DNA from: Pantoea rwandensis
GTDB lineage: Bacteria > Pseudomonadota > Gammaproteobacteria > Enterobacterales > Enterobacteriaceae
Direction: 5' to 3'
Assembly: GCF_000759475.1 (NCBI RefSeq)
Contig: NZ_CP009454.1
Span: 2,790,001 to 2,854,000 of the forward strand
Length of the DNA stretch: 64,000 nt
Of the stretch, positions 21,003-24,150 are shown piece after piece; positions within the stretch are counted from its first letter, which is position 1; each line of letters starts with the position of its first letter. The notes under the pieces are model-generated. The model did not search any database, had not been told where the DNA came from, and was given only the letters and a program-made list of their open reading frames with translations. A program made the position numbers and the translations under genes.

Positions 21003-22190
21003 TTACTGCGGTAACGAAGCTTTTAAACGCTGTGCTGCGAGAGCTAAATTGGTTTCCGATACTGAGGCATACGAAATACGCAGCGTAGAAGTATCCGGAT
21101 TATCACAGTAGAAAAACTCACCGGGAACATACACTACACCATTGCTCAGCGTGGTTTTCAGCCATTCGGTGGTGTTGAAGGCTTCTTTGAACGTTGCCCA
21201 CAGGAACATGCCACCCAGCGGGCGATAGAAGTGCAGCTTATCCCCCAATTCCGTCTCCAGTACTGCACACAGTGCATCGCACTTCTGCTTATAGGCCGCG
21301 CGAATTAAGCGAATCTGCTCCGGCAAGCGACCGGTTTCCAGATAATGACGCGTCAGGGATTGTGACAAGGCACTGGTGTGCAGATCCGTCGCCTGCTTCA
21401 GGTTCACCACCGATGATTTCAACCAACCCGGCATGGTAATCCAGCCAACACGTGCACCCGGTGCCAGAATTTTGGAGAAGGTCGAGGTATAAATGACATT
21501 CTCACTGGCACCCATGGCTTGCGCATGGGATTTCAATGGGCGGAATGTCTGGTCGGTGAAGTTAATCTCGCTGTAGGGATCGTCTTCAAAAATCAGGAAA
21601 TCATACTGTTTCGCCAGTGCAACCAGCTGCTGACGGCGCGCTTCTGATAAGGTCACACCGCTTGGGTTGCCAAAGGTCGGAACGATATACACGGCTTTGA
21701 TTGACGTCTGTTTGACCAGTTCTGCCAGCTCGTCAACGATCATGCCTTCGCCATCGGTGCCCACAGACTTAAATTGCGCATCAGCTAACTGGAAGACCTG
21801 TAACGCGGCGAGATAAGTCGGACGCTCCACCACCACCACGTCGCCTGGGTTAATCAGCGCGCGCGCAAGGATATCCAGTGATTGCTGTGACCCGGAAGTG
21901 ACCACAACGTCGTCCGGTGTGCAATCAATACCACGATCGGCTGAAATGCGGCAGATCGCTTCACGTAACAGCGGATCCCCTTCACTCAAGCCATACTGAA
22001 ACGCGTTGTGGCCATCCTGTGATAACGCACGATCCATCGCGATCTGCAGGCCTTCGGTATCAAACAGATCGGGATTCGGGATACCACCACCGAGTGAAAT
22101 CACCCCTTCCATTTTGCTGTGTTTCAATAAATCGCGAATGGCTGATGAATGAATGCGTTTAACGTTATGGGATAACTTTTGCGACGACAT
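21003..22190 (-). CDS. PLP-dependent aminotransferase (class I/II, 2-aminoadipate-transaminase-like)
   Basis: This is a 395-residue fold-type I aminotransferase. It shows ISLGGGIPNPDLF, the QYGLSEGDPLLREAI strand, TSGSQQSLD, PTFGNPSGVTLS, DDPYSEINF, and STFSKILAPGARVGW with the PLP-binding Lys in SK. This set is typical of the LysN/MocR-like aminotransferases acting on branched, aromatic or aminoadipate substrates. There is no GntR domain, so it is a free enzyme and not a MocR regulator. It is a single gene, with the toxin-antitoxin region upstream of it. Substrate unknown. Confidence 0.92.
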   Translation of the reverse strand: MSSQKLSHNVKRIHSSAIRDLLKHSKMEGVISLGGGIPNPDLFDTEGLQIAMDRALSQDGHNAFQYGLSEGDPLLREAICRISADRGIDCTPDDVVVTSGSQQSLDILARALINPGDVVVVERPTYLAALQVFQLADAQFKSVGTDGEGMIVDELAELVKQTSIKAVYIVPTFGNPSGVTLSEARRQQLVALAKQYDFLIFEDDPYSEINFTDQTFRPLKSHAQAMGASENVIYTSTFSKILAPGARVGWITMPGWLKSSVVNLKQATDLHTSALSQSLTRHYLETGRLPEQIRLIRAAYKQKCDALCAVLETELGDKLHFYRPLGGMFLWATFKEAFNTTEWLKTTLSNGVVYVPGEFFYCDNPDTSTLRISYASVSETNLALAAQRLKASLPQ

Positions 22191-22340
22191 AAAACCTTTA
22201 CCTGATTATATTTTTCTAAGGCTAAATTCATAACATAAGTTAGCTATGCTGATAATCACATTTTCACGGTTTGGCAAATAGAATTTAGTACCGGAAGGAA
22301 ACGACGGATATGGCGAAATTATCACTGTTGGCAAAGAACG

Positions 22341-22369
22341 AAAAAAGGCGGAGGGGTGAGCTCCGCCTT
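22341..22369 (-). terminator. Rho-independent terminator of the tisB-like transcript
   Basis: Read on the minus strand, AAGGCGGAG pairs with CTCCGCCTT (arms 22361-22369 and 22345-22353) around a short loop and is followed by a run of T (22346-22341). It lies 15 bases past the toxin stop codon, as expected for the end of a short mRNA. Confidence 0.9.
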
Positions 22370-22383
22370 GCTTCAAGTTCCGG

Positions 22384-22473
22384 TCAATGTGCCTGACCGG
22401 TCAGTTGCAAAAGGGCAACGATGATTTGCAGGATCACCCGGACCAGGTCCAGGAGTAACCGAACAAGTTCCAT
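22384..22473 (-). CDS. tisB: TisB-like SOS-induced type I toxin, 29-residue hydrophobic peptide
   Basis: A 29-residue peptide starting MELVRLLLDLVRVILQIIVA and ending LLQLTGQAH. E. coli TisB is also 29 residues, and its core ILKLIVAALQL aligns with ILQIIVALLQL here (8 of 11 identical, from memory of the E. coli sequence). The peptide forms one amphipathic membrane helix with spaced Arg/Asp. TisB inserts in the inner membrane, collapses the proton-motive force and promotes persistence after DNA damage. ATG 22473 follows the strong site GGAGAAGGAAAGTG. A LexA box lies about 211 bases upstream, a terminator directly downstream, and an antisense RNA gene beyond the promoter, the whole istR-tisB plan. 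The C-terminus differs from TisB, lacking its Lys-rich tail. Confidence 0.87.
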   Translation of the reverse strand: MELVRLLLDLVRVILQIIVALLQLTGQAH

Positions 22474-22552
22474 CACTTTCCTTCTCCTCTGACAGGAGCG
22501 CGCCTTTCAGCCGTCAGGGCTTTGACTCCACCCGCCGATGGCCTGAGCACAA

Positions 22553-22570
22553 TTGTGAGGAGTGCTGAGC
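22553..22570 (-). promoter_or_regulatory. Antitoxin RNA target (standby-type site) in the tisB-like mRNA leader
   Basis: The 18-base + strand sequence TTGTGAGGAGTGCTGAGC here is identical to 22748-22765, the 5' end of the predicted antitoxin RNA. The toxin mRNA therefore carries its exact complement, 80-97 bases ahead of the toxin ATG. In E. coli, IstR-1 pairs with the ribosome standby site about 100 bases ahead of tisB, so position and length both agree. Confidence 0.85.
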
Positions 22571-22681
22571 GCCACTCATTGTGGAAGCCACAGGCCAGCA
22601 CCACCTGAAACCTGCCGGGATTTGACTATCCGCGCCCCTGGGAGTCATCAGAAAACAATGAGACTGCGCTCGCCACTCAAC

Positions 22682-22701
22682 ACCTGTATAACCATACAGT
22701 A
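22682..22701. promoter_or_regulatory. LexA (SOS) box
   Basis: On the minus strand the sequence is TACTGTATGGTTATACAGGT, against the consensus TACTGTATATATATACAGTA. Both CTGT/ACAG half-sites are intact with correct spacing. It lies between the toxin leader and the divergent antitoxin RNA gene, where the E. coli istR-tisB locus also has its LexA site. SOS derepression of the toxin is the expected result. Confidence 0.9.
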
Positions 22702-22713
22702 TTTTAGCGAAAC

Positions 22714-22742
22714 TTGAAATATTTCCCCGCACATTTTATGAT
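22714..22742 (+). promoter_or_regulatory. Sigma-70 promoter of the antitoxin RNA
   Basis: TTGAAA (22714-22719), a 17-base spacer and TATGAT (22737-22742) make a near-consensus promoter with predicted start at about 22749. It lies outside the LexA box, so it should be constitutive, as the IstR-1 promoter is. Confidence 0.85.
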
Positions 22743-22748
22743 TTGCTT

Positions 22749-22843
22749 TGTGAGGAGTGCTGAGCACCCCGTTCGCAGCGCGGTTACCAGCCAGTTCGCG
22801 AACATAAAAAAAAGGATTTGGCGTGATAGCCAAATCCTTTTTT
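22749..22843 (+). ncRNA. istR: IstR-like antitoxin small RNA
   Basis: A predicted RNA of about 95 nucleotides starts 7 bases after the -10 box and ends at a perfect terminator (22811-22843). Its first 17 or so nucleotides (UGUGAGGAGUGCUGAGC) are an exact complement of the toxin mRNA leader at 22553-22570, so it acts in trans on a divergent transcript. E. coli IstR-1 has the same design: an unstructured 5' pairing tail and a 3' terminator. A longer SOS-controlled form starting near the LexA box (IstR-2-like) is possible. No protein frame is evident in it. Confidence 0.85.
22811..22843 (+). terminator. Terminator of the IstR-like RNA
   Basis: AAAGGATTTGGC (22811-22822) and GCCAAATCCTTT (22829-22840) pair perfectly around a 6-base loop, with T tract to 22843. 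A-rich sequence on the other side lets it also serve the opposite strand. Confidence 0.93.
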
Positions 22844-22857
22844 ATTGCCTGCGATAA

Positions 22858-24150
22858 TCAGTTTGCCGAACTGACACGCCAGATAGCATTACCGGCATCA
22901 TCCGCGATCAGCACACCGCCCCGCTGGTCTGAAGCCAGGCCGACCGGCAAACCTCGTACCTGTTTTTGGTCATCGGTCAGGAATCCCGTGACGACTGGCT
23001 GCGGCTGTCCAACCGGTTTTCCGTTTTCGAATTTCACCCACACCACCTGGTACCCATTCAACGGCGTACGATTCCAACTGCCGTGCTCACTGATAAATGC
23101 CCCTCCGCGATACTGCGGCATGTTATCTGCGCCATAGAACAGCAAGCCAAGCGGTGCCACATGCGAGCTGAGCGCGTAATCCGGCTTGATGGCCTTCTCG
23201 ACTAAATCGGGACGCTGTGGCTGCGCTCGCACATCGATATGTTGGCCATAATAGCTGTAAGGCCAGCCGTAAAAGCCTTTCTCCTGCACTGATGTCATGT
23301 AATCTGGCACCAGGTCTGAGCCGATTTCGTCTCGCTCGTTGACAATCGCCCATAGCTTGCCGCTTTGCGGTTCCCATTGCAGACCTGTTGGATTGCGCAG
23401 ACCGCTGGCATAAATGCGACTGGCTCCGCTGGCTGCATCGACCTCTAATACCGCAGCACGGCGGTACTCTGCACCAATGCCGTTTTCCGTAATGTTACTG
23501 TTGGAACCAACGCCGACATAAAGCTTAGTCCCGTCCGGACTGGCGACCAGTGATTTAGTCCAGTGGTGGTTAATCGGCCCACCGGGCAACTCGGTTACCA
23601 CCACGGGCGGTGTGCGAATCTCGGTTTGGCCGCTCTCATACGGGAACTTCACCAGACTATCGGCATTGGCAACATACAGCGTGTTGCCCACCAGTTGCAT
23701 GCCAAACGGCGCGGTGAGGTTGTCGATAAAACGATGTTGCTCCCATTTGCCGTTCACGTTACGTAGAAGCGTAATTCGGTTTCCGCCAGCCCCGCCTTTA
23801 CCTGAGGCATTTTTCACCATACCGGTGATGAGATCTTTAGGTGCCGTGGTCGGCTTCGGCGTACCGTTGGATTCGGCGACCAGCACATCATTATTAGGAA
23901 GGACCAGCACCTGGCGGGGATGCTGCAAATTGTCGGCGATCTTTTCAATTTTCAGCCCCTGCGCGACCTTCGGCATTTCACCCGCTTTCCACGGTATGGC
24001 TTCTGGCACCTGCATCGGCGGCATAAAGAAGTTTTGTGCTTGCGGCAACTCAGGATTGGGACCAATTTGCTTTTGCGGATCGATCAACGCACCATCGTCA
24101 CAAGCACTCAGAACCATTGTCAGGGTCACTGCACCAAGAATCTTCTTCAT
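22858..24150 (-). CDS. Sorbosone-dehydrogenase-like (PQQ-type beta-propeller) lipoprotein
   Basis: This 430-residue protein has a lipoprotein signal with lipobox LSAC (Cys 17), so it is anchored in the periplasm. The body is a six-bladed propeller of the sorbosone/soluble aldose dehydrogenase group: ADNLQHPRQVLVLPNNDVLVAES, LTAPFGMQL, NHHWTKSLVASPDG-KLYVGVGSN, YASGLRNPTGLQWEP and NERDEIGSDLVPDY. Such enzymes often use PQQ to oxidise aldoses or aldonic aldehydes; PQQ dependence here is inferred. Its start overlaps the stop of the DUF2231 membrane gene, a pairing that suggests the membrane protein accepts electrons or assists assembly. Confidence 0.85.
   Translation of the reverse strand: MKKILGAVTLTMVLSACDDGALIDPQKQIGPNPELPQAQNFFMPPMQVPEAIPWKAGEMPKVAQGLKIEKIADNLQHPRQVLVLPNNDVLVAESNGTPKPTTAPKDLITGMVKNASGKGGAGGNRITLLRNVNGKWEQHRFIDNLTAPFGMQLVGNTLYVANADSLVKFPYESGQTEIRTPPVVVTELPGGPINHHWTKSLVASPDGTKLYVGVGSNSNITENGIGAEYRRAAVLEVDAASGASRIYASGLRNPTGLQWEPQSGKLWAIVNERDEIGSDLVPDYMTSVQEKGFYGWPYSYYGQHIDVRAQPQRPDLVEKAIKPDYALSSHVAPLGLLFYGADNMPQYRGGAFISEHGSWNRTPLNGYQVVWVKFENGKPVGQPQPVVTGFLTDDQKQVRGLPVGLASDQRGGVLIADDAGNAIWRVSSAN

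Follow-up and report, generated by a model that had tools for sequence, protein, structure and literature searches.

According to one paper (PMC11449926), the toxin TisB of the E. coli tisB/istR-1 system is confined to the family Enterobacteriaceae, and the sequences aligned there come from bacteria closely related to E. coli. In the same work not even Arg could take the place of Lys12, Gln19 was also important, with Leu and Lys failing and Asp working at this position, and either Lys26 or Lys29 was needed. Mutation and compensation experiments demonstrated that E. coli tisB needs a pseudoknot in its leader, formed by loop nucleotides 53-57 with nucleotides 73-77 (Romilly 2020, PMC7708055). 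The dinQ gene is SOS-controlled and starts at GTG (PMC3567139), and according to another paper it does not depend on standby (PMC5668327). Regarding descent, tisB, zor and shoB have been called non-homologous (Romilly 2020, PMC7708055), and such systems are presented either as non-homologous or as alike in layout and control (PMC7708055, PMC3567139, PMC4147584, PMC5668327).

The locus described here was found in a window of 64,000 nt, which is the whole stretch of DNA that was analysed, from a Pantoea genome of 4.33 Mb. It shares with tisB/istR-1 a LexA-type box located between a divergent toxin mRNA and small RNA (both predicted here), a pairing element of about 21 nt in the leader some 100 nt before the start, a predicted leader pseudoknot, a 13-mer of IstR and an amphipathic peptide of 29-30 residues with the core IL-x-x-IVA-x-LQL. 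It differs from it in position, the K-12 system lying between ilvB and emrD, in the letters of the pairing element, in the GTG start, in a core shifted by four residues and in having Gln for Lys12 and no Lys tail. The shoB/ohsC system has the same divergent layout, the leader element and a peptide core with a similar profile score, whereas its antitoxin RNA differs and no LexA core was found upstream of shoB, unlike in Pantoea, where the box is present. Both dinQ/agrB and dqlB/agrB show the leader element and a divergent antisense RNA, but the pseudoknot arms of dinQ are in another register and its peptide profile is weakly similar. The Salmonella timP/timR system, compared by description only, likewise combines a divergent antitoxin RNA with a pseudoknot in the toxin leader, which shows covariation (PMC11228461). 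The main text of a paper on P. ananatis Hfq contains none of the terms istR, tisB and sorbosone.

The locus and its conservation across Pantoea

The module occupies an intergenic gap of 667 nt (22191-22857) between a class I/II aminotransferase gene (21003..22190, minus strand) and a glucose/sorbosone dehydrogenase-like gene (22858..24150, minus strand, assigned by Pfam). An earlier note on this DNA had proposed a TisB/IstR-type module in a gene desert; the module does lie outside annotated genes, but the desert amounts to this intergenic gap. All the elements that the note had listed, namely the frame, the Shine-Dalgarno sequence, the terminators, the LexA box and the divergent promoter, were present, and so were the two neighbouring genes, which are unlike the E. 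coli neighbourhood.

A DNA search (E <= 1e-5) recovered the 467-nt module in 55 of the 61 genomes of the genus, with the dehydrogenase gene flanking it in 48 and the aminotransferase gene beside it in 7 of the 55 loci. The nearest module DNA among named relatives was a Candidatus Pantoea formicae record (97.6%). The genomes lacking the module are the full-size G317 and G319 and the small G322, G333, G335 and G343, the last being 74% complete. A search of these six with the leader model R1, described below, returned only weak and chance-like matches, in three of them. The absence from G317 and G319 is an observation in its own right, these being genomes of the same genus that are not reduced.

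An automatic test for box, leader and repeat was positive in 30 of 34 named loci; among the other four, one showed GTACA in the box, one had an exact repeat of 8 nt, and the remaining two passed once the register was corrected. LexA box, peptide and pairing element are kept together as a unit across Pantoea, which is the check that the earlier note had proposed, and the evidence rests on this unit and not on single elements.

When the module DNA was searched against 295 genomes of the family, 285 gave some match at E <= 10, nearly all of them chance-like; strong matches came from three sampled Pantoea only, and G103 showed a short core match (E 2.6e-8). The plasmid DNA search gave no match. 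The peptide profile, searched against 392 family genomes, returned 20 matches at E <= 0.1, five of which were Pantoea. By inspection, three of the 15 non-Pantoea matches (G103, G362 and G421) have leader, peptide and repeat, the longest exact repeat of G362 being merely 10 nt. The G119 match shows no leader, one match lies in G286, and the other ten non-Pantoea matches were weak and without support or were left aside.

The toxin-like peptide

The toxin-like frame (22384..22476, minus strand) consists of 30 codons and a stop. It had been read in the earlier note as 29 codons running from 22473 to 22384 on the minus strand (MELVRLLLDLVRVILQIIVALLQLTGQAH); the frame itself was right, but the start is probably the GTG at 22476, since this GTG is invariant in 55/55 relatives and the following ATG at 22473, the alternative start, is ATT in one. 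The Shine-Dalgarno sequence AGGAGAAGGAAA (22477..22488, minus strand) precedes the frame, with GGAGAAGGAAAGTGAT identical in 55/55 loci. An intrinsic terminator of the toxin mRNA (22345..22369, minus strand) was detected by a terminator scan and is kept in the locus alignment; the scan is not strong alone (3 against 1.6 +/- 1.2). For the toxin promoter, no site could be pinned down at the locus.

The frame is open in all 55 Pantoea loci, where 34 distinct DNA forms encode 23 peptides (pN/pS 0.30) and the variable columns are distributed 15/4/20 over codon positions 1/2/3. The encoded peptide is hydrophobic and amphipathic. Its polar residues 6, 10, 13, 17 and 24 fall within a 60-degree arc (P 0.00045, over the residue range 5-25 picked by the analyst), compared with 120 degrees (P 0.014) for TisB in the same test. 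All 23 peptide forms have Arg13 (of 30), Arg or Lys at position 6 and Asp or Glu at position 10, which together with both Gln residues make up the arc.

The site corresponding to TisB Lys12 is Gln in 55/55 loci, the Gln19 site is also Gln in 55/55, and a Lys follows the core in 2/55. The predicted Pantoea peptide is thus without residues reported as needed in TisB, and the combination of Gln at the Lys12 site with an almost invariable lack of a C-terminal Lys is a new finding. The earlier note had correctly pointed to the missing Lys-rich tail, to which the Gln at the Lys12 site is now added. As the equivalents of Lys12 and of the Lys tail are missing and the polar arc is another one, the peptide would either form its pore in another way or have a milder effect.

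Two further observations concern the frame. In locus L064 (G341) the stop codon is lost and the frame extends to 39 codons, with a tail containing Arg. In loci L054 and L055 (G323 and G324) the 3' half of the toxin frame is duplicated together with its terminator; the extra copy lies about 620-715 nt from the module start and adjoins REP-like GCGCGATTTATCGCGC palindromes.

The curated models PF13939, NCBIfam TisB and RF01400 gave no match to the Pantoea module, while K-12 TisB, used as positive control, matched PF13939, NF011340 and TIGR04459. Similarly, the NCBIfam DinQ and DqlB models matched neither the host peptide nor the second Pantoea form, and K-12 DinQ was matched. The module is therefore missed by the Pfam, NCBIfam and Rfam models. 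RF01400 was above its cut-off in 47/295 family genomes, the host genome not being among the 47; the best of the six RF01400 matches in the host genome (E 0.0013) lies elsewhere than the module, and Rfam at lax thresholds returned eight unconvincing matches, istR not being among them.

The LexA-type box, the predicted divergent small RNA and the pairing element

The LexA-type box is located at 22682..22701, its core CTGTATAACCATACAG (22684-22699) reading CTGT-N8-ACAG. This core is perfect in 44/55 loci and ends in ACAT in 11/55. The bare core alone is not significant, as one was found in the window against 0.79 expected. The pattern CTGTAT-N5-TACAG occurs at six places in the host genome, and the reversed-pattern control at none. 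It precedes the RecA, UmuD/UmuC and SulA genes (Pfam); a fourth box stands in front of a small frame that has a DinI-family gene behind it, next to a prophage gene of GPA type, and the sixth place is the module itself. The fifth box, CTGTATTTACATACAG at C1:2602523 of the host genome (L228:1501-1771), lies directly before a 77-aa frame without Pfam match, which may possibly represent an unknown SOS gene.

On the opposite strand, a sigma-70-like promoter TTGAAA-17-TATGAT (22714..22742, plus strand, 10/12 match) would drive the transcription of a predicted antitoxin small RNA (22748..22843, plus strand), with a 5' end at about 22748 deduced from the promoter and a terminator at its end. The promoter scan is not strong alone (4 found against 1.3 +/- 1.0). 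The probable terminator is a 15-bp inverted repeat (22808..22843), which the earlier note had listed as a second terminator. The repeat is symmetric and lies 14 nt past the stop of the dehydrogenase gene, so that it could serve both strands, ending the antitoxin RNA and the dehydrogenase gene alike.

The main addition to the earlier note, which had left it unstated, is a direct repeat of 21 nt. The pairing element with which the predicted antitoxin RNA would begin (22748..22768, plus strand) repeats the antitoxin-pairing element of the toxin leader (22553..22573, minus strand) at 20 of 21 nucleotides, and because the two transcripts would be divergent, the direct repeat implies antisense complementarity. 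Within the 16-nt core, positions 22753, 22754 and 22757 vary jointly in both copies, all 55 loci being concordant. Two positions vary in the leader copy alone: 22563 departs from its partner in 29/55 loci and 22567 in 1/55; the other core positions are invariant. When own and swapped repeat partners were compared over 29 distinct pairs, the values were 504 and 467 +/- 5.7, respectively (0/10,000 as high). The haplotypes with joint changes need two changes on a tree of 48 loci, thus indicating few independent events within the genus; this tree omits the seven loci without the dehydrogenase flank, three of which have a further pairing haplotype. In other lineages the letters of the repeat are unrelated, yet the repeat is present (18 nt in G103, 21/22 in K-12 tisB).

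RNA folding returned no clear single-stranded standby site, with the pairing element 0.53 unpaired, and the duplex energy was not decisive (-78.3 against -62.7 +/- 4.1 for shuffled sequences, the lowest of 200 being -80.0). The longest word shared by the predicted small RNA and E. coli K-12 IstR-1 is the 13-mer GCGGTTACCAGCC (22780..22792, plus strand). None of 5000 mononucleotide shuffles reached 13, the maximum being 11. GGTTACC is kept in 49/55 Pantoea loci, and the corresponding CTGGTAACCG form occurs in 6/13 E. coli-type loci.

The predicted leader pseudoknot and related leaders

A leader element of the standby pseudoknot type was located at 22585..22623 (minus strand), with the S2 arms at 22610-22615 and 22590-22595 and the core GGTGGTG at 22599-22605. 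Fifteen leader sequences chosen by the analyst, from Pantoea, G103, G362/G421, G230 and K-12 tisB, dinQ and shoB, were aligned on a structure taken from Romilly 2020 (PMC7708055) and from inspection. For the eight pairs of this predicted structure, 91.7% of the cells were paired and the covariation was 0.608, compared with 0.189 +/- 0.040 for shuffled alignments (0/500 as high); the best slid register gave 62.5% paired and a covariation of 0.311. In S2, 90% of the cells were paired and 5/6 pairs had changed on both sides; the count of pairs changed on both sides was not above shuffles (142/500). The dinQ leader fits in another register only. According to this alignment, the predicted Pantoea pseudoknot is homologous in position to the tisB pseudoknot, with compensatory changes between lineages.

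A model of the leader element that includes the pairs, R1, matched the host leader with E 4.2e-9, the host sequence being among the 15 used to build it. R1 matched 164/295 family genomes at E <= 1; at E <= 0.001 a hand count gave about 77 places, spread over 69 genomes. We inspected 70 of these loci, consisting of the 30 best and of 40 chosen by the analyst, mostly places without an RF01400 match. The leader core was at the expected position in 64/70, a hydrophobic frame preceded by a Shine-Dalgarno sequence followed 90-240 nt downstream in 57/70, and a LexA core occurred in 31/70, all within the 57 with a frame. The hydropathy cut-off of 2.2 excludes G103 (2.08), though its peptide is plain by inspection. 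Of the 40 chosen loci, 37 have the core under a looser pattern, and 27 of these 37 showed such a frame at 130-160 nt; the same test on random placements gave 0/927. At the Pantoea module the flanks of the leader core C[AG]GGTGGTGC[CT]G are complementary and a short hydrophobic frame follows, a combination by which we propose to group the divergent type I systems that share this leader. In 29 other leaders, own pseudoknot arms scored 5.19 and swapped arms 4.60 +/- 0.15 (0/1000), a test that is partly circular because R1, which found those leaders, scores these pairs.

The frames behind the leader look TisB-, ShoB-, DinQ- and DqlB-like; NCBIfam confirmed the DinQ and DqlB examples, and the ShoB-like frames were named by no model. 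Profile comparison by hhalign returned probabilities of 86.1 for Pantoea-TisB, 88.7 for Pantoea-ShoB, 88.8 for TisB-DinQ, 78.9 for TisB-ShoB and 39.4 for DinQ-ShoB, each with 0/60 column shuffles as high, and of 26.1 for Pantoea-DinQ (1/60). On these comparisons, one leader motif common to the Pantoea module and to the tisB, dinQ, dqlB and shoB loci appears as a new finding; among the titles and abstracts found by a literature search, none claimed a common origin or a covariance model for these systems.

In three loci (L136, L139 and L170, from genera g142 and g131) the peptides end in ...QLTGRP and the shared leader is present, with no LexA core upstream; these relatives apparently lie outside SOS control. 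Separately, a genome of the same family carries a CRISPR-like array (L191:604-635, G061:C10) in which a 29-32-nt repeat recurs 20 times, spaced 61 nt apart, and for which no plasmid match was obtained at E <= 0.01. One of its spacers equals the leader element of a type I toxin (TTTCCCCGTTGAAACGGGTGGTGCCGTCAAAG), as if aimed at such a module.

Mechanism, alternatives and significance

The locus is likely an SOS-induced type I toxin-antitoxin module working like E. coli tisB/istR-1. LexA, by binding to the box, would restrict the toxin mRNA to a low level. The small RNA would be transcribed constitutively and would pair in the cell with the leader at 22553-22573, so blocking translation. The pseudoknot at 22585-22623, which adjoins the pairing site, would recruit ribosomes to a standby site. 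Upon DNA damage LexA would be cleaved, and the toxin mRNA, transcribed from a putative promoter, would exceed the small RNA. The presumably toxic peptide would then insert into the inner membrane and reduce the proton-motive force, and growth would slow down or cease, a state that may correspond to dormancy.

As to mechanism, the identification as a diverged TisB/IstR-type module made in the earlier note is supported, as the unit is conserved and both the leader pseudoknot and the IstR 13-mer tie it to E. coli tisB/istR. The description as a diverged TisB relative holds less well for the peptide, whose profile is as near to ShoB as to TisB and which the curated models do not match. Because the sequence models and the key residues fail, formal TisB membership is not claimed; the module is TisB/IstR-like in design, not formal TisB.

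With the same mechanism, the module might instead stem from a sister branch of the leader superfamily, ShoB-like or other, the LexA box having been gained independently and the likeness to TisB/IstR being partly convergent. The hhalign values, which place the peptide as near to ShoB as to TisB, and the G103, G362 and G421 relatives, which have the leader and no LexA core, would fit such a history, which we nevertheless regard as doubtful given the 13-mer in common with IstR-1 and the occurrence of the LexA box elsewhere only with TisB-like frames among the 70 inspected loci. It is also conceivable, though unlikely, that the peptide is made under SOS and is no toxin at natural levels, exerting instead a mild membrane tuning during repair, as proposed for DinQ. 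DinQ is thought not to act mainly via depolarization (PMC5668327), and the absence of the equivalents of Lys12 and of the C-terminal Lys would agree with such a role; tight antisense control and leader gating are, however, kept genus-wide, as would be expected if a leaky peptide were harmful.

The likeness of the two repeats might be ascribed to gene conversion and not to selection for RNA pairing, since they are direct repeats 195 bp apart with haplotypes common to both and few independent changes. We consider this very improbable: identity ends at the pairing core and the flanks differ, one leader position drifts alone, and other lineages keep the layout with unrelated letters. That the short frame, the LexA-like site and the repeat came together by chance has a negligible probability in our judgement, because all parts are conserved genus-wide and no random placement gave the frame at the observed distance behind the leader element, even though a bare LexA core, like a short hydrophobic frame, is nothing rare.

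Returning to the tisB/istR-1-like module, we lean towards a single ancestral RNA module, comprising the leader pseudoknot, a near-fixed distance, a membrane-peptide frame and a divergent antisense gene, as the source of the Pantoea toxin and of TisB, ShoB, DinQ and DqlB. Its conserved heart would be the leader RNA, and the letters of the pairing element, the residues of the toxin and the promoter control, whether by SOS or otherwise, would have been exchanged around it. If this is true, the Pantoea toxin indicates that an SOS toxin of this kind is possible without the Lys12 and the Lys tail of TisB.

A 2024 commentary stated that such pseudoknots still have to be identified on a genome-wide scale (PMC11295053), and the shared leader would allow unannotated type I toxins to be searched for by sequence. 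The compensatory changes of the Pantoea leaders would support the tisB pseudoknot with evidence from nature, and the peptide would be a natural counter-example to pore models built on Lys12 and the C-terminal lysines. With this module, the range of SOS-type membrane toxins would be widened to the genus Pantoea.
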